In this document: positions 49,673 to 54,931 of the stretch, piece after piece | Position numbering within the stretch: the first letter of the stretch is position 1 | Layout of the letters: every line of letters begins with the position of its first letter | Assembly (NCBI RefSeq): GCF_001953175.1 | Contig: NZ_CP018258.1 | Coordinates: 1,702,210-1,766,209 of the forward strand | Direction: 5' to 3' | DNA length: 64,000 nucleotides | From: Dehalogenimonas formicexedens | GTDB taxonomy: Bacteria > Chloroflexota > Dehalococcoidia > Dehalococcoidales > Dehalococcoidaceae | Made by a program: the position numbers and the translations under genes | The notes under the pieces: generated by a model | What the model saw: only the letters and a program-made list of their open reading frames with translations | What the model was told of the DNA's origin: nothing | Database searches by the model: none

Positions 49673-49745
49673 TGAAAATAACTTCAGATTCCTCGGTGCC
49701 CTGAGGAAGATATCCAACTATTTATTCCCGCTCGACGAGGCACCA

Positions 49746-50625
49746 ATGACTATCGCCGATATCACCAAAGCGACGGCAATAGTAACGCTGGGTGGCTTGA
49801 GCCATACCTATGAAGGCGCGGTAATGACAGACAAAACCACTCCGGCCAGCCTGATGGTGACTTTCACCTACAATAGGCTACGTGGAGGCGCCGTCCGCCG
49901 TCGGCAGCTGTACCGTAGTCGCCACTGTCGATGACGTGAACTACCAAGGCGGCGCCGCCGGCACGATGGTGATCTTCGCTCAGTTGCCGCCCAACTTCGG
50001 TGGCCGGGGGGTATGTACTTCGGTTCGCCGCTCCCTGGGATCAACCTGGCCGCCACTTCGCCCTGGATGGAAACGGCAAGGTGATTACCCCGGCCTTTTC
50101 AAGGCCGACGACGGCGAGTGTGTTTTGACCTTTGAGAGCGGCAGCGTCGTCAGGAATGCCGGCGCGGCGGTTTATGCCGTGTCGGCCATGACGTAGAAAC
50201 GCCGTACGCCGCCCCGCCGCAGGGCGCGATAATCTTCGCCTATCAGATGGACCCAGCGGCTTCACCTTTAACCCGGCCTCACCATGACCCTGTGCTACAC
50301 CGACGCCCAGATTCCAGCAGGTATGCTTGAGAGTTCTCTCTACATCGCCGTCTAGGACGGCTCTAACTGGGTCAAGCTCCGGAGTTCCGTCGATTCGGTG
50401 AACAACAAGGTGACGGCCCAGGTGGAACATTTCAGCACCTTCTGCGTCTTGGCCCATGTGCCGACGACGGCATCTCCGGCGACATCCACGGCCAGGCTGC
50501 GGACCACCACGACATGGTCGGATGAACCCTCCGACAACAATCTCATCGTCCCGATTAGCCTGGTTGCTGTAGCCGCCCTTCCGCTGGGTATCGTTCTCTA
50601 CCAGAGAAACAGAAAAACCAGGTAA
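49746..50625 (+). pseudogene. Decayed surface-protein gene (MBG/YDG-type domain plus shared C-terminal module)
   Basis: Pieces in different frames follow the order of the intact surface proteins at 13.9-18.4 kb: an MBG-type repeat (ITKATAIVTLGGLSHTYEG, continuing in another frame as APSAVGSCTVVATVDDVNY), a degraded form of the FGSQLVGIGLSGTSPFMDG segment (YFGSPLPGINLAATSPWM), then TLCYTDAQIPAG, LYIAV with an in-frame TAG, DGSNWVKL and VEHFSTFCVLAHV, and finally a transmembrane helix (VAVAALPLGIVLYQRNRKTR). At least three frameshifts and one stop are present, so it is not functional. The start of the gene is missing next to the IstB remnant. Confidence 0.8.
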
Positions 50626-50649
50626 GTCTCGATTCGCGGTAAACCAAAG

Positions 50650-50681: not shown

Positions 50682-50859
50682 GGCTGGCTAATTGGGGATT
50701 TGCCTTTGTTGCAAGAGCCAACAACCCCATCACCCAACAACATCTGCTTATGTGACCAACTAGTGTGTTAGAATGTTTGACTCGGTCTGAAACTCGAACG
50801 ATTTCTGGATGAAGATATTGTTCAGGGGCGTGGCTAAAACTGGCCAGGCTATTGACACG

Positions 50860-51342
50860 TTAGAGTAGTAAGGCGGCGACTTCTTCGTCAGCCCACTTGA
50901 AGAACGACGCGACAATTGGGGCTAGCTGTAAAACCACCATCGCCACGTCCCAGCATTTATTCTCATCCGGGGCCCAACCATCCGAAGAAGTCTGGATGTT
51001 AAACGCGGTGAGTAATTCAGGGAGAGTGGATGACCGATAGAACATCGCAAACGGGTTCTGCCAATATTCTCTGAGGTAATCGCTGTCTGGCTCGAGGGCC
51101 GTAAGCTTTTCTTTGTAAAACCACTGCCAAAGATCACGGAATCGCTCTTCGTGACTAGTGAGCCATTCACGGAGCAGTTCGTACGTGGCGGCGTCACTAG
51201 CTGAAAAAGGTATCTGGTTTTCGGAGGGGCTTCTGTCAGTACGCAGAACGTCGAACAATAGGTCCCCGAGCTGGAACCACCGGTCTGCCCATTCGCCAAC
51301 GAAATCACCACAACTGAGTTTGGCTTCGTTAGAATTATCCAT
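50860..51342 (-). CDS. Hypothetical protein, last gene of the phosphatase unit
   Basis: From the ATG at 51342 the protein has 160 residues, rich in W, D and E, soluble and mainly helical (DFVGEWADRWFQLGDLLFD at the start). I chose this start because it follows the previous stop by one base and has GGAGGG upstream; 51363 would overlap. No family is recognised. It is the third gene of a unit headed by a low-molecular-weight phosphatase. Confidence 0.6.
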   Translation of the reverse strand: MDNSNEAKLSCGDFVGEWADRWFQLGDLLFDVLRTDRSPSENQIPFSASDAATYELLREWLTSHEERFRDLWQWFYKEKLTALEPDSDYLREYWQNPFAMFYRSSTLPELLTAFNIQTSSDGWAPDENKCWDVAMVVLQLAPIVASFFKWADEEVAALLL

Positions 51343-51343
51343 A

Positions 51344-51634
51344 TCAGATCGATCCCTCCGCATGCTGTTTCAAAGAGCGGTCGATCATTGACAAGAGCGC
51401 CAAAAAGCTAAAGTGTAACTCTCGGGAGAGTCTTTGGTGAAACTCCGGGAACTCTGATTCCAGATCGGGAGCCGCTGCTTGAAAGACATTATCTTCAAAC
51501 GCCAGGATAGTGTTGGCTAGCACTTCGTTCGATTGGTTAAGCCGCGCGAATTCAAAGTCGAGGGTGGCACGGTCGAGTTCAAGCATAGTGAGGACGGAGT
51601 CTACCAATTCAACTTTAGGAATATACTCAAACAC
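51344..51634 (-). CDS. Hypothetical helical protein, translationally coupled to the phosphatase gene
   Basis: From GTG 51634 the protein has 96 residues, acidic and helical, with no recognised domain. The start lies in the overlap GTGTTTGA with the phosphatase stop and has GAGGTG five bases upstream, so coupled translation is likely. A start at 51673 is possible but would give a 47-base overlap. Confidence 0.55.
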   Translation of the reverse strand: MFEYIPKVELVDSVLTMLELDRATLDFEFARLNQSNEVLANTILAFEDNVFQAAAPDLESEFPEFHQRLSRELHFSFLALLSMIDRSLKQHAEGSI

Positions 51635-52124
51635 TGGCCACCTCTGTGGTAAACCGCCCATTTTCGATGTCATTCAACCGACTGGCAACCAGTTTAGTCA
51701 TGTCATCCAGTTGCTTGGCGCACCGCTGGTAATCTGCATCGGTGCCGCCAACCGGATCCGGCACCTGGTCGCCGGATCCGACAAATTCGCCGATGGTGAA
51801 TACCTTATAGGCTTCCTCCGGGGCAAAGCGTCTTACAGAATGAGACCTGCCGATATCTGTTGTAAGCACCAGGTCAGCCCATTTCAGCAATGGGTGATTC
51901 AAGGCTTGAGACTTGTGATTTCTCAGACTAAGCGGTCGGCCAGAATTGTCCTGGTATCGAGCGATCGCCTTGACCGATCCAGGGCTGGCTGGACAGCCGT
52001 CCTCGGCACCGGTGCCGCAAGACTGTACTTCATCCTGCCGCCTACCCATGTTGGCTTTGTACAGCACCTCGGCCATTGGGCTGCGGCACATATTGGCATA
52101 GCAGACAAAAAGGATTTTATTCAA
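51627..52124 (-). CDS. Low-molecular-weight protein tyrosine phosphatase-family protein
   Basis: The protein of about 165 residues has the C-x5-R phosphate loop as VCYANMCRSPMAE near the N-terminus and the general-acid loop VPDPVGG near residue 120. The canonical Gly of CxGN is Ala here. I prefer TTG 52124 because GGAGG lies ten bases upstream; a GTG at 52133 would touch the Shine-Dalgarno site. It may be a Wzb-type tyrosine phosphatase of the glycan region, or arsenate-reductase-like; no tyrosine kinase gene is in the window. Confidence 0.8.
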   Translation of the reverse strand: MNKILFVCYANMCRSPMAEVLYKANMGRRQDEVQSCGTGAEDGCPASPGSVKAIARYQDNSGRPLSLRNHKSQALNHPLLKWADLVLTTDIGRSHSVRRFAPEEAYKVFTIGEFVGSGDQVPDPVGGTDADYQRCAKQLDDMTKLVASRLNDIENGRFTTEVASV

Positions 52125-52231
52125 AGACTTCACCCCTCCCAGATAAGAATCGGACCTAAGCTATTTCACGCACAAAGTCGCTAATCCGTCAAATTTTCAG
52201 GGTAAAATAGCGACGTTCCAAAGAGCCCTCC

Positions 52232-52966
52232 CTACTTGGCGCCTTGCCACTGGTAAGGCAGGGTTTCGCCCCGGTTCATTTTGGCGATCTCTGCCTCAAG
52301 ACGCAGCCCACTAGCACCGGGAATCATGCGGCCGTCGGGGTAAACCGTCCAGTCAGCTTCCTGCCAGGGAACGCATACGTACCTGTATTGCCACCCAATA
52401 TTCACCCTGCCTTGCTGGGAGTTGCCGGAAATGTCGTACCAGTTGACGCCTTTCCAATAGGTAGCGACGTAGTTCATGGCTGCTGGGGAGGTGGCCAGCG
52501 AAACGAGCCGGGCGTACACGAACTGCGTCCCCTTAAAAGAATAAAACACCTGCCAGTCAGTCGCGATGTTAGACGGCAGCGAATCACCGCTCTCACCCCT
52601 GGCGTAAACTCGATAGAAATAAGTGGTGACCGGATGATCGAGGGCGGCGGCTACCAAGTTAAATGCCGGTTCGGTCAGGTCTGTAAAATTGAAGGTTAGA
52701 TTGGTGACAACTACGTCCTTAGTGAAATTGAGATCGGTGGAACGTTCCAACCGGAAGCCAATCTCATTGACCGAGTTATCAGCCCAACGAATATTGATCT
52801 TGTTTGGGTCGATGATCTTCACCACCAGATCGGATGGCGCAGCCGGGATTGGTTCCGGCGGAGAGGTCGTTACGGCGGGTGGGGTGACCTGGGCCCCGCA
52901 AGATACCGCTGTAAGAATGAGAACCATTGAAAGCACCGGATAAAGCCACCGTTTGATATGAGCCAT
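52232..52966 (-). CDS. Lipoprotein with fibronectin type III domain
   Basis: From the ATG at 52966, with the strong site GAGGAGGAAAT, the protein has 244 residues. The lipoprotein signal ends in the lipobox TAVSC. A Pro/Thr-rich linker and an FN3 domain (about 45-140: INIRWADNSVNEIGFRLERS) follow, then about 100 residues with an aromatic-rich motif (YWKGVNWYDISGN) resembling a KTSC-like domain. It is surface-exposed; the substrate or partner is unknown. Confidence 0.78.
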   Translation of the reverse strand: MAHIKRWLYPVLSMVLILTAVSCGAQVTPPAVTTSPPEPIPAAPSDLVVKIIDPNKINIRWADNSVNEIGFRLERSTDLNFTKDVVVTNLTFNFTDLTEPAFNLVAAALDHPVTTYFYRVYARGESGDSLPSNIATDWQVFYSFKGTQFVYARLVSLATSPAAMNYVATYWKGVNWYDISGNSQQGRVNIGWQYRYVCVPWQEADWTVYPDGRMIPGASGLRLEAEIAKMNRGETLPYQWQGAK

Positions 52967-53030
52967 ATTTCCTCCTCGTGTTTTTATTAAATAGGAGGGG
53001 GGTTGTTCCCTCTCCCTGACCACTCATGAA

Positions 53031-53510
53031 TCACTTCACCTTACGGATACGGCGCTTGAATAGTGGGAGGCCAGCGCTCCGGCGGAGTTCGTCGGTTTCT
53101 TGAGCAGAGGTCTTGAAGCCGACCCCGGCAACCCTTTTGACGTACACCATGTGCTTTGTGTACCGGTCCACTTCATAGTGAAAGGAATATTCTTCGCCGT
53201 TCGGGGCAACACAACTGGTCAAAGCATCAATAGCGGTGCGCCTGCCGGTGTAGCGTATCTCCGGGTCATGGTTCCAGCAGAACTCTTCTATCGATTTGCC
53301 CAGGACGACACCAAGCATATCGACCGGAGGCGGATGCTGGCGGGATGAGCTGGATGGAATAAATGTCCTTCCTTCCAGTTGAGCCGTGCGGGTGATCCGC
53401 CCATCGAGGACGGCGCTCATGTTTCTAAGTGTCACCCTATCCTGTGTTGAGGTATTGTGGTGGAGGTATTCAACCATTTTAGCTAACTGCAAATTATGCT
53501 CGGTGTCCAT
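53031..53510 (-). CDS. Unknown protein, paralogue of the gene at 53607
   Basis: The 159-residue basic protein has a C-terminal half (from HPPPVDMLGVVLGKS) that aligns with its neighbour, ending in the shared pattern VKRVAGVGF-K/R-T ... DELRRSAGLPLFKRR. The central part has SIEEFCWNH opposite PSEFARKH in the paralogue. There is no signal peptide or membrane helix. The basic end and internal helical segment suggest nucleic-acid binding, but no family is recognised. It lies downstream of its paralogue on the same strand, 96 bases apart. Confidence 0.6.
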   Translation of the reverse strand: MDTEHNLQLAKMVEYLHHNTSTQDRVTLRNMSAVLDGRITRTAQLEGRTFIPSSSSRQHPPPVDMLGVVLGKSIEEFCWNHDPEIRYTGRRTAIDALTSCVAPNGEEYSFHYEVDRYTKHMVYVKRVAGVGFKTSAQETDELRRSAGLPLFKRRIRKVK

Positions 53511-53606
53511 TTGAAAACTCCTTATCTCATATTCGATAACCCTGCTACTCTGCTGACTAAAGGGGAGACGCGATTCGAACTGCTCTGATACACCTCCTTT
53601 GCGTGC

Positions 53607-54203
53607 TTACTCAAACACCCTTTGAATCTTATGCTTCGGTCGCTTTATCGGCGGCAATCCTTCTTGCCTGCGCCACTCATCGACCTCATCGGAATAAGTG
53701 CGGTAGCCGCGACCGGCGGTCTTTCTGACGATGATGCCGTCTTTGTCGTACTTGATAACCTTGAAATGGTAGGGGAGATCATCCCCGGACAGGTCCCTTG
53801 CCGCGGTTAAGGAATCGATCCCGTTCAGCATGCCGCTGTACTTTAAGCCATGCTTTCGTGCGAACTCAGATGGGTTATTGGCCAGGATTTTGCCTTGCTC
53901 ATCCTTGACCGGCGGGTGAATACTCCGGCTGCGAAGGGAATAACCAGATTTCCTGCGCGGGGCCGGGGTGTCGCTGGTAAGGGATGTTTCGAGCACCTCC
54001 AGAACCGCACGATAGAGTTCCTTTTCGGCGCCTGTCATCAAAGGCAGTAACCCTTTCAGCTCTTCACCCGGAGGTAGAACCGGCGTACAATTGGCAGTTC
54101 CGTTCACCACGGCTCTGGCTGTCAGCCGAACGAACAATGTTTCACCGGCTGAAAGTTTGGTAAACCGTCTATTCAATTCTTGCAAGCGGGCGTCTAGGTT
54201 CAT
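53607..54203 (-). CDS. Unknown protein under XRE-type operator, paralogue of the gene at 53031
   Basis: From the ATG at 54203 the protein has 198 residues. I reject the longer start at 54287 because it lies inside the promoter. The N-terminal helical part (LNRRFTKLSAGETLF ... TGAEKELYRAVLEVLE) is unique; the C-terminal half has HPPVKDEQGKI, PSEFARKHGLKYSGML, DGIIVRKTAGRGYRT and DEWRRQEGLPPIKR, matching the paralogue. It contains a segment like a homeodomain-style or plant-AP2-like DNA-binding helix (SEFARKHGLKYSGMLNGI), seen in some phage HNH-associated proteins, which is tentative. Confidence 0.6.
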   Translation of the reverse strand: MNLDARLQELNRRFTKLSAGETLFVRLTARAVVNGTANCTPVLPPGEELKGLLPLMTGAEKELYRAVLEVLETSLTSDTPAPRRKSGYSLRSRSIHPPVKDEQGKILANNPSEFARKHGLKYSGMLNGIDSLTAARDLSGDDLPYHFKVIKYDKDGIIVRKTAGRGYRTYSDEVDEWRRQEGLPPIKRPKHKIQRVFE

Positions 54204-54267
54204 CTGGTGGCACTTCTTTTCGAGGTTCTCGTGGTTCTCTAGTATAGGCAATATGTTACCAGCGCAT

Positions 54268-54297
54268 ATCTTATGTGTACCACACATAATTTGTCAA
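54268..54297 (-). promoter_or_regulatory. Promoter with embedded operator palindrome
   Basis: On the minus strand a perfect TTGACA (54297-54292) and TAAGAT (54273-54268) are 18 bases apart. An exact 8-3-8 inverted repeat, TTATGTGT-ACC-ACACATAA (54271-54289), fills the spacer and touches the -10. A dimeric repressor here would block the promoter; the divergent XRE gene 33 bases away is the natural candidate. Confidence 0.7.
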
Positions 54298-54321
54298 GCT
54301 CTTTACCCTAAGATAATTCCC

Positions 54322-54561
54322 GTGGAAAATAGAAACTTGATTGGTGCCAGGATTCGGCAAGCCCGGCTGTCAGCCCGACCTCCCGTAACCCAAGAGGATT
54401 TAGTTGCCCGTTTACAAACTCAAGGTCTCAACATAGATCAGGCAATGATCTCCAGAATCGAGTGTGGTCAACGGCCAGTTTCGGATTTTGAAGTAGTGGC
54501 GTTTTCAAAGGCATTAAAGGTAAAGACCTCGTGGCTCCTCGAAGGAGACAACGGCGGGTAG
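54322..54561 (+). CDS. XRE-family transcriptional regulator
   Basis: From GTG 54322 the protein has 79 residues and is essentially one HTH_XRE domain: IGARIRQARLSARPPVTQED, then the recognition helix region IDQAMISRIECGQRPVSDFE, ending SWLLEGDNGG. A TAAGAT at 54309-54314 lies eight bases before the GTG, which would give a leaderless message. It is divergent from the paralogue unit and probably binds the palindrome between them. The longer open frame from 54091 runs through the other gene and is rejected. Confidence 0.82.
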   Translation: MENRNLIGARIRQARLSARPPVTQEDLVARLQTQGLNIDQAMISRIECGQRPVSDFEVVAFSKALKVKTSWLLEGDNGG

Positions 54562-54625
54562 ACATGGGATTTATTATTCCGATTATTGAGTAGTTGAATG
54601 TAGCCCAAGTGAGGTTAGGATAAGA

Positions 54626-54664
54626 CGAAGGTAGCGATAAAGGTTCTACCTTTTGATACCTTCG
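54626..54664. other. Strong imperfect hairpin next to a tRNA-like T-arm remnant
   Basis: CGAAGGTA (54626-54633) pairs with TACCTTCG (54657-54664), and inside it AAAGGT (54639-54644) with ACCTTT (54648-54653), loop TCT. Just beyond, the minus strand reads GGTTCGAATCC (about 54678-54688), as in a tRNA T-loop, but the flanking stem pairs poorly, so this may be a degraded tRNA. The 225-base interval 54562-54786 holds no gene I can support; it also has a small CTTCTC/GAGAAG hairpin near 54755. Confidence 0.45.
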
Positions 54665-54786
54665 CTCCAGCTGAGGGGATTCGAACCAACGAAATCCTGG
54701 GGTGTCTATACACCAGCGGTGAGGAGCTGTTGTAAGGCGGGAATAAGCGACTTCTTCTCGAAGAGAAGTTCGGAATGCATTCTAAT

Positions 54787-54860
54787 TGGCTGGGGATCCA
54801 GGATTCGAACCTGGCCAAGCAGATCCAGAGTCTGCTGTCCTACCGCTAGACGAATCCCCA
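54787..54860 (-). tRNA. tRNA-Gln (anticodon CTG)
   Basis: The minus strand folds as a standard tRNA: acceptor TGGGGAT / ATCCCCA, D-arm with TCTAGCGGTAGGACA, anticodon stem GCAGA / TCTGC with loop CTCTGGA (anticodon CTG, reading CAG), and T-arm CCAGG-TTCGAAT-CCTGG. The discriminator is G and the 3' CCA is encoded (54789-54787). The first pair is U-A, usual for tRNA-Gln. A TATAAT at 54889-54884 on the same strand is a likely -10. Confidence 0.95.
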
Positions 54861-54893
54861 GCGGCTTCAAAGAAGCAAAGGCAATTATATCTG

Positions 54894-54931
54894 AAAAAAG
54901 CGTAATGCCGCAACCGCAGAGCGGTCACGGC
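54894..54931 (-). terminator. Probable terminator between the small membrane ORF and tRNA-Gln
   Basis: GCCG-CA-ACCGC (54907-54917) pairs with GCGGT-CA-CGGC (54921-54931), loop AGA. On the minus strand it is followed by ATTACGC and a six-T run (54899-54894). Confidence 0.5.

Follow-up and report, generated by a model that had tools for sequence, protein, structure and literature searches.

The window, by which we mean the whole 64,000-nucleotide stretch of Dehalogenimonas formicexedens DNA that was analysed, contains a small XRE regulator gene that faces an operon beginning with two paralogous genes, and the promoter of this operon is filled by an exact palindrome. Our main reading of the locus, to which we give a probability of roughly 0.6, is that a C-protein/ImmR-like XRE protein, probably made from a leaderless mRNA, acts as a repressor of the divergent operon and probably as an activator of its own gene, at the end of a serine-recombinase genomic island. 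The regulator is of an ordinary class and the switch of a known general type; of interest are its setting and the two orphan proteins.

Gene organization of the locus

The XRE gene (54322..54561, plus strand) has a GTG start without a Shine-Dalgarno sequence and encodes the divergent 79-residue XRE protein that was originally predicted. Its product matches HTH_31/HTH_3 (E 4e-5 to 2e-4, slightly under the curated cut-offs) and the PADLOC model Control_protein, which has no curated cut-off (E 4e-5). As a single-domain HTH protein of 79 aa, it falls within the size range of C proteins (about 75-100 aa).

On the minus strand, paralogue 1 (53607..54203, 198 aa) consists of a helical N-terminal part and a C-terminal module, and paralogue 2 (53031..53510, 159 aa) of a predicted helical hairpin followed by the C-terminal module of paralogue 1. 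By open reading frame rules, paralogue 1 would start at the ATG at 54287 and have 226 aa, and the next in-frame ATG, at 54203, gives 198 aa; since the upstream start falls inside the promoter, 54203 is most likely the true start. The operon runs past 53031 through four further co-directional genes to 50860. These encode a lipoprotein-like protein of 244 aa (52232..52966, minus strand; weak fn3 match below the cut-off, E 0.0045), a low-molecular-weight protein tyrosine phosphatase-like protein of 168 aa with a CX5R(S) motif (51627..52133, minus strand; LMWPc match, E 9e-20), a conserved hypothetical protein of 109 aa whose gene overlaps the phosphatase gene (51344..51673, minus strand), and, as the final operon gene of the window copy, a conserved hypothetical protein of at most 167 aa (50860..51363, minus strand). 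In an intact island elsewhere in the genome, the operon gains an HTH_17 gene 13 bp beyond the last shared gene (L009, 2097-2471; HTH_17 E 1e-12). Gene order, direction and the short gaps or overlaps suggest that 54203 to 50860 is a single operon of six genes (seven in the intact island), with the paralogues first.

When the window copy was compared with the other copy in the same genome, synonymous divergence in the genes was about 0.3 per site. The dN/dS ratio was 0.018 for the XRE gene, 0.165 and 0.178 for paralogues 1 and 2, 0.169 for the lipoprotein, 0.172 for the phosphatase, 0.165 for the 109-aa hypothetical protein and 0.288 for the last hypothetical protein. Judged by these ratios, every gene of the locus is under purifying selection and thus behaves as a functional gene.

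A palindrome fills the operon promoter

The putative operator dyad, TTATGTGT-ACC-ACACATAA, is exact at 54271..54289, and its centre lies some 42 bp upstream of the XRE start codon. As the original prediction had it, the dyad fills the 18-bp spacer of a predicted leftward promoter (54268..54297, minus strand) with the boxes TTGACA (54297-54292) and TAAGAT (54273-54268). This TTGACA-18-TAAGAT arrangement is the top promoter-like site of the region 50800-54900, scoring 10/12. In the other direction, the XRE gene is preceded by one or more -10-like elements (54309..54317, plus strand; TAAGAT/GATAAT), 4-7 bp before the start codon.

With up to three mismatches allowed, 0.15 occurrences of TTATGTGT-ACC-ACACATAA are expected per window. 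The 2.09-Mb genome contains two perfect copies, one at each copy of the locus. Conservation of the palindrome in related genomes had been named in advance as a test, and indeed the operator is identical in all three known copies of the locus, where it lies within a 40-bp invariant block comprising the dyad and the -35 box. A chance palindrome was considered and rejected in view of this invariance, of the occurrence of the genome copies at the locus only, and of the positional conservation in relatives described below.

The window locus has one clear dyad only, at -42, and no second full dyad. A possible third half-site lies upstream of the dyad in L009 (CACATA-TC-TTATGTG) and L050 (CGAATA...TATTCG), about 50-65 bp before the XRE start, which suggests two overlapping dyads in these loci; it is weaker in the window copy.

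Relatives of the XRE regulator

Relatives of the XRE protein were gathered from the genus, the class and the phylum. Outside the three locus copies, none of them has the paralogues opposite; they face lipoprotein-like, HEAT-repeat, zinc-ribbon or unassigned genes instead. In L050, the lipoprotein-like gene opposite the XRE relative has weak similarity (E 8e-5) to the window operon's third gene, and the promoter, TTGACA-17-TATAGT, again overlaps with a dyad, which is its own and lies in the spacer. In L076 (293-2456), from another genome of the phylum, the relative is flanked by an N6/N4 methyltransferase on one side and a BglII-type nuclease on the other. Two relatives lie 3.5-4 kb from serine recombinases beside tRNA-Val (G004:C1:1205036 with 1208767, and G005:C1:596414 with 600665), so that the controller is also seen close to recombinases whose target is a different tRNA.

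The dyad centre (-42 ± 2.5) was fixed from the window locus and then scored on the 11 other XRE loci. Their mean score was 5.18, a value reached by none of 1000 dinucleotide shuffles (mean 2.97, maximum 4.23). The arms themselves differ between loci, as in TATTCGAT-a-ATCGAATA, AATATTCT-cctac-AGAATATT, ATATGTA-tcacg-TACATAT and the 11-7-11 dyad of L065; the position is therefore conserved and the sequence is not. Low scores at the fixed centre were obtained for four of the 12 loci (L062, L063, L064 and L076). One of them, L062, has a 7-3-7 dyad displaced by a few bases, and L076, the relative with restriction-modification (R-M) neighbours, has no clear dyad at the fixed centre.

In 8/12 loci, the end of a -10-like hexamer falls 4-8 bp ahead of the XRE start (shuffles: mean 0.6, maximum 4). 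The hexamer 17 bp upstream of this box is not -35-like in the family, and a Shine-Dalgarno match is absent in all but one locus. Because the -10-like box stands directly before the start and the Shine-Dalgarno sequence is absent, the XRE mRNA is probably leaderless.

The family is thus common without the paralogues and opposite unrelated genes, from which it follows that the unit is a general controller with cargo rather than a closed switch. The original prediction of a self-contained switch is borne out in part: the palindrome is conserved, and the paralogues never occur without the XRE gene (in three copies only), whereas the XRE family is widespread without them. The genome search for the module beside XRE genes that had been proposed as a test gave the same mixed picture, in that all three copies have the XRE gene, two of them being 99.97% identical, while the XRE gene is common without the module.

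Proposed mechanism and comparison with known systems

The original prediction that the XRE protein acts on the palindrome in the divergent promoter is well supported, as the operator is identical in all copies and the dyad distance is kept in the 11 relatives as a set. On this comparative evidence, the palindrome is very probably the site at which the XRE protein turns transcription on and off. In the mechanism we propose, the dyad, centred some 42 bp ahead of the XRE start, would be bound by an XRE dimer. As this site fills the spacer of the leftward TTGACA/TAAGAT promoter, its occupancy would block that promoter and shut off the operon with the paralogues, which is the safest part of the proposal. 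If the XRE mRNA is leaderless, the dyad is at the classical (class II) position for activating a promoter without a good -35 box, and this geometry, together with the analogy to C proteins, suggests that the XRE protein would switch itself on. By analogy to C proteins only, entry of the island into a new cell may lead to expression of the operon first, followed by its silencing as the XRE protein accumulates.

The C proteins of type II R-M systems (AhdI and EcoRV type; PMC5333194) are likewise single-HTH proteins of about 80 aa with a dyad just upstream of their own promoter. The AhdI C protein is leaderless and self-activating, from a promoter with two operators (PMC5333194). C proteins typically have tandem operators in front of their own gene, a distal one for activation and a proximal one for repression, and thus first activate and later repress themselves. 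The probable leaderless mRNA resembles that of the AhdI C protein and the divergent promoter overlap resembles EcoRV (PMC5333194), and the relative in the BglII-type R-M locus L076 is found in a C-protein setting. In contrast to the AhdI promoter with its two operators (PMC5333194), there is a single clear dyad here. Moreover, the XRE gene neighbours the paralogues, a lipoprotein and a phosphatase, with no REase or MTase genes, and the divergent gene encodes an orphan protein, not a methyltransferase. ImmR of ICEBs1 (PMC8960796) is also an XRE-type regulator of an integrated element that is counter-transcribed to the operon it controls. Unlike ImmR, the XRE protein described here has room for the HTH domain only in its 79 aa, is not accompanied by an ImmA-like peptidase, and has one dyad as opposed to six sites.

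The two paralogues

Both predicted paralogues are present as open reading frames, and their C-terminal modules share 36-38% identity over about 110 aligned columns (tblastn E about 1e-16 to 1e-18), with AGxG[YF]xT...DExRRxxG[LF]PxxKR common to both. The duplication part of the proposed duplication with diversification is supported. The N-terminal half of one had been thought unique and lacking in the other; this stands partly, since paralogue 2 has a helical N-terminal segment of its own, of about 52 aa (AF2 prediction, modest confidence).

The paralogues had been placed outside known families, and in agreement with this they have no family match in Pfam, PHROGs, NCBIfam or PADLOC. Paralogue 1 has no match among 50,697 phage records, and no relatives of the paralogues were found in collections of genome contigs, viral contigs, phages and plasmids from which near records may be left out. 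A search of the genome itself gave the second copy, and one of 60 relatives gave the third, in one sister species. A profile search of 393 genomes of the class gave marginal matches only, all in one genus. One of these (L055, in G118), situated in arginine-rich antisense-type reading frames of GC-rich DNA, is regarded as spurious, and three others have internal stop codons. A degenerate-motif scan over genome contigs gave six stretches, by eye all unrelated. Within the libraries searched, the paralogues are thus orphan proteins without a family.

AF2 models of paralogues 1 and 2 are of low confidence (pLDDT 54.5 and 62.4), and the shared module is predicted, likewise at low confidence, as a beta-hairpin, two short helices, a beta-hairpin and a helix. 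Fold searches with these models gave no match with E <0.1 or Z >=8, and the matches returned resemble helical-hairpin or noise matches. A likeness of the module to NUMOD-type DNA-binding repeats was considered and is supported by no search. The most likely role of the paralogues is that of accessory proteins encoded by the island. They possibly bind nucleic acids, which is a guess; the models give it no structural backing because of their low confidence.

Island boundaries and copies

Comparison of the copies shows that the locus forms the right-hand terminus of a serine-recombinase genomic island; in this lineage, islands of this type use the 3' end of tRNA-Ala as insertion site. Over 50865-54669 (3.8 kb), the window copy and the other copies align at 89.5%. 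The second copy lies in the same genome (G000:C1, 464.7-465.9 kb) and the third in one sister species; these two are 99.98% identical over 22.4 kb (443.93-466.30 kb), so the three copies amount to effectively two independent sequences. Identity among all three stops exactly at the end of GTTCTACCTTTTGATACCTTCGCTCCA (54643..54669), and that between the second and third copies ends at the same base as in the window copy. Abutting this island end is an 18-nt fragment of the tRNA-Ala 3' end (54670..54687, minus strand), which reads GGTTCGAATCCCCTCAGC on the minus strand and is identical to a string in the tRNA-Ala at the left end of the intact island.

The intact island extends from tRNA-Ala at about 434.4 kb of G000:C1 to 466302, about 32 kb. 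At its left end, a 539-aa serine recombinase with Resolvase, Recombinase and Zn-ribbon domains lies at tRNA-Ala. Inverted motifs that match each other stand at the two island ends (...CTATCAATAGGTAGAAC / GTTCTACCTTTTGATACC...), and GCTCCACCAAA, from the 3' end of the tRNA, recurs at the right end of this copy. In the sister species, the island sits at a different tRNA-Ala gene. A stretch of about 22 kb with 99.98% identity in two species indicates, by sequence, a recent transfer of the island between them.

The intact copy (G000:434.4-466.3 kb) shows the features of a tRNA-Ala serine-recombinase island, a large serine recombinase next to one end and the tRNA-Ala 3' end at the boundary, while the window copy has the right end and the tRNA-Ala fragment only. 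The window copy is truncated or rearranged, and the island genes further left are missing. Its site is tRNA-Gln, the gene at which homology begins in the sister genomes (query position 115-118); Rfam at the locus gave tRNA-Gln only. Adjoining the truncated copy, the window contains a decayed coding region (49740-50640) that resembles a repeat-containing surface protein split over several frames. A second serine recombinase (L115; G000:C1:1672760-1674271), 76% identical to that of the island, has the left-end motif and no intact tRNA-Ala. It lies outside the window, 84 kb left of the right end of the window copy, and could be the opposite end of an island that is larger or has been rearranged, or an inversion remnant.

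The left 10 kb of the intact island (L023-L024, G000:C1:434392-443930) is found in the sister in pieces, with altered order and orientation, which suggests repeated rearrangement. Genes in this part encode, as judged by eye, homoserine acetyltransferase-like and sulfhydrylase-like proteins, and there is also a tyrosine recombinase. Further along the island (L024 5100-8381 and 10252-14734, i.e. G000:C1:445100-454734) are the genes of a type IIG R-M enzyme and of a STAND NTPase-like protein of 1262 aa, which has a HEPN_Swt1 protein beside it; the latter two may be a defence pair. No phage structural genes were recognised among the island ORFs read.

Islands of this general kind are known from Dehalococcoides, where tRNA-Ala islands have repeated tRNA-Ala 3' fragments (PMC2764846) and ssrA islands have a 540-residue serine recombinase (PMC3146451). 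A large serine recombinase of about 540 aa by one att end, tRNA-Ala as integration site and tRNA-Ala 3' fragments at the boundaries are features shared with them (PMC3146451, PMC2764846). Unlike the ssrA islands, integration here is at tRNA-Ala, and no reductive dehalogenase gene was noticed among the ORFs read. In an unsystematic look, the ParB/RecF/Mom integration module of Dehalococcoides islands was not noticed either. A dcpA island at ssrA is common to the strains D. formicexedens NSZ-14 and D. alkenigignens IP3-3 (PMC13390414), and is similar in being a near-identical island in two species of the genus. The island described here differs from it in its tRNA-Ala site, and the passages of PMC13390414 consulted make no mention of it.

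Discussion

We considered several other explanations of the locus. With an ICE-type repressor switch, an ImmR-like XRE protein would keep the island quiescent and repress an operon ending in an excisionase-like HTH_17 gene, and the paralogues would be early mobilisation functions. The terminal position of the locus on the island would fit, as would the counter-transcribed layout, which is as for ImmR/Pxis (PMC8960796), the HTH_17 gene with which the operon of the intact copy goes on, 13 bp beyond the shared genes, and the two relatives in the genus 3.5-4 kb from serine recombinases. However, HTH_17 is a broad family, there is no anti-repressor peptidase gene beside the XRE gene, the large serine recombinase is 30 kb off at the opposite island end, and for some of the further XRE relatives the stretch read contains no recombinase. 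The window copy moreover does not have the HTH_17 gene, yet its remaining genes are under purifying selection, and we regard such a switch as unlikely, if worth keeping in mind. It is improbable, in our view, that the operon is a so far undescribed defence system against phages or plasmids, with its timing set by a C-protein-like controller. The match of the XRE protein to Control_protein, the relative in the BglII-type R-M locus, and the type IIG R-M enzyme, STAND NTPase and HEPN protein of the intact island would all agree with a defence role, but neither the paralogues nor the phosphatase nor the two hypothetical proteins have a PADLOC match, two of the cargo genes look related to the envelope or to signalling, and repression by the controller would keep the operon off at steady state, which is unusual for defence.

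The locus had been compared to a phage-like or toxin/antitoxin-type switch, and neither description is supported for this end of a serine-recombinase island. A phage CI/Cro-type immunity region was rejected, as the paralogues match no PHROG or phage record, a serine recombinase is found at tRNA-Ala, and phage structural genes were unrecognised among the ORFs read. Small adjacent genes, an XRE protein and a palindromic operator in the promoter are what a toxin-antitoxin module would show, with one paralogue as toxin and the other, or the XRE protein, as antitoxin and autorepressor. Such a module is nevertheless very improbable: the XRE gene is divergent and not in the operon, its relatives stand opposite unrelated genes (lipoprotein-like, HEAT-repeat, methyltransferase), no toxin family match was obtained in Pfam, NCBIfam or PADLOC, and a toxin-antitoxin pair would not usually consist of two paralogues that have a module in common and head an operon of six genes.

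The C-protein/ImmR-like controller at an island end is thus our preferred explanation. A bolder extension of it, which we consider speculative and rather doubtful, would be that the paralogues are a new family found only on Dehalogenimonas islands that serves establishment or the silencing of a host response, with a burst of expression on entry that the leaderless XRE controller ends, and that this type of controller, leaderless and with its dyad at -42, serves throughout Chloroflexota as a portable timing device for cargo ranging from R-M systems to envelope proteins.

For tiny unannotated XRE regulators, the present data provide a rule for finding the operator, namely a dyad some 42 bp upstream of the start codon together with a -10 box a few bases before the start. 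Genomic islands spread dehalogenase genes among organohalide-respiring bacteria, and the locus described here indicates that the ends of islands in these bacteria carry compact controllers of their own as well as a family of orphan proteins.
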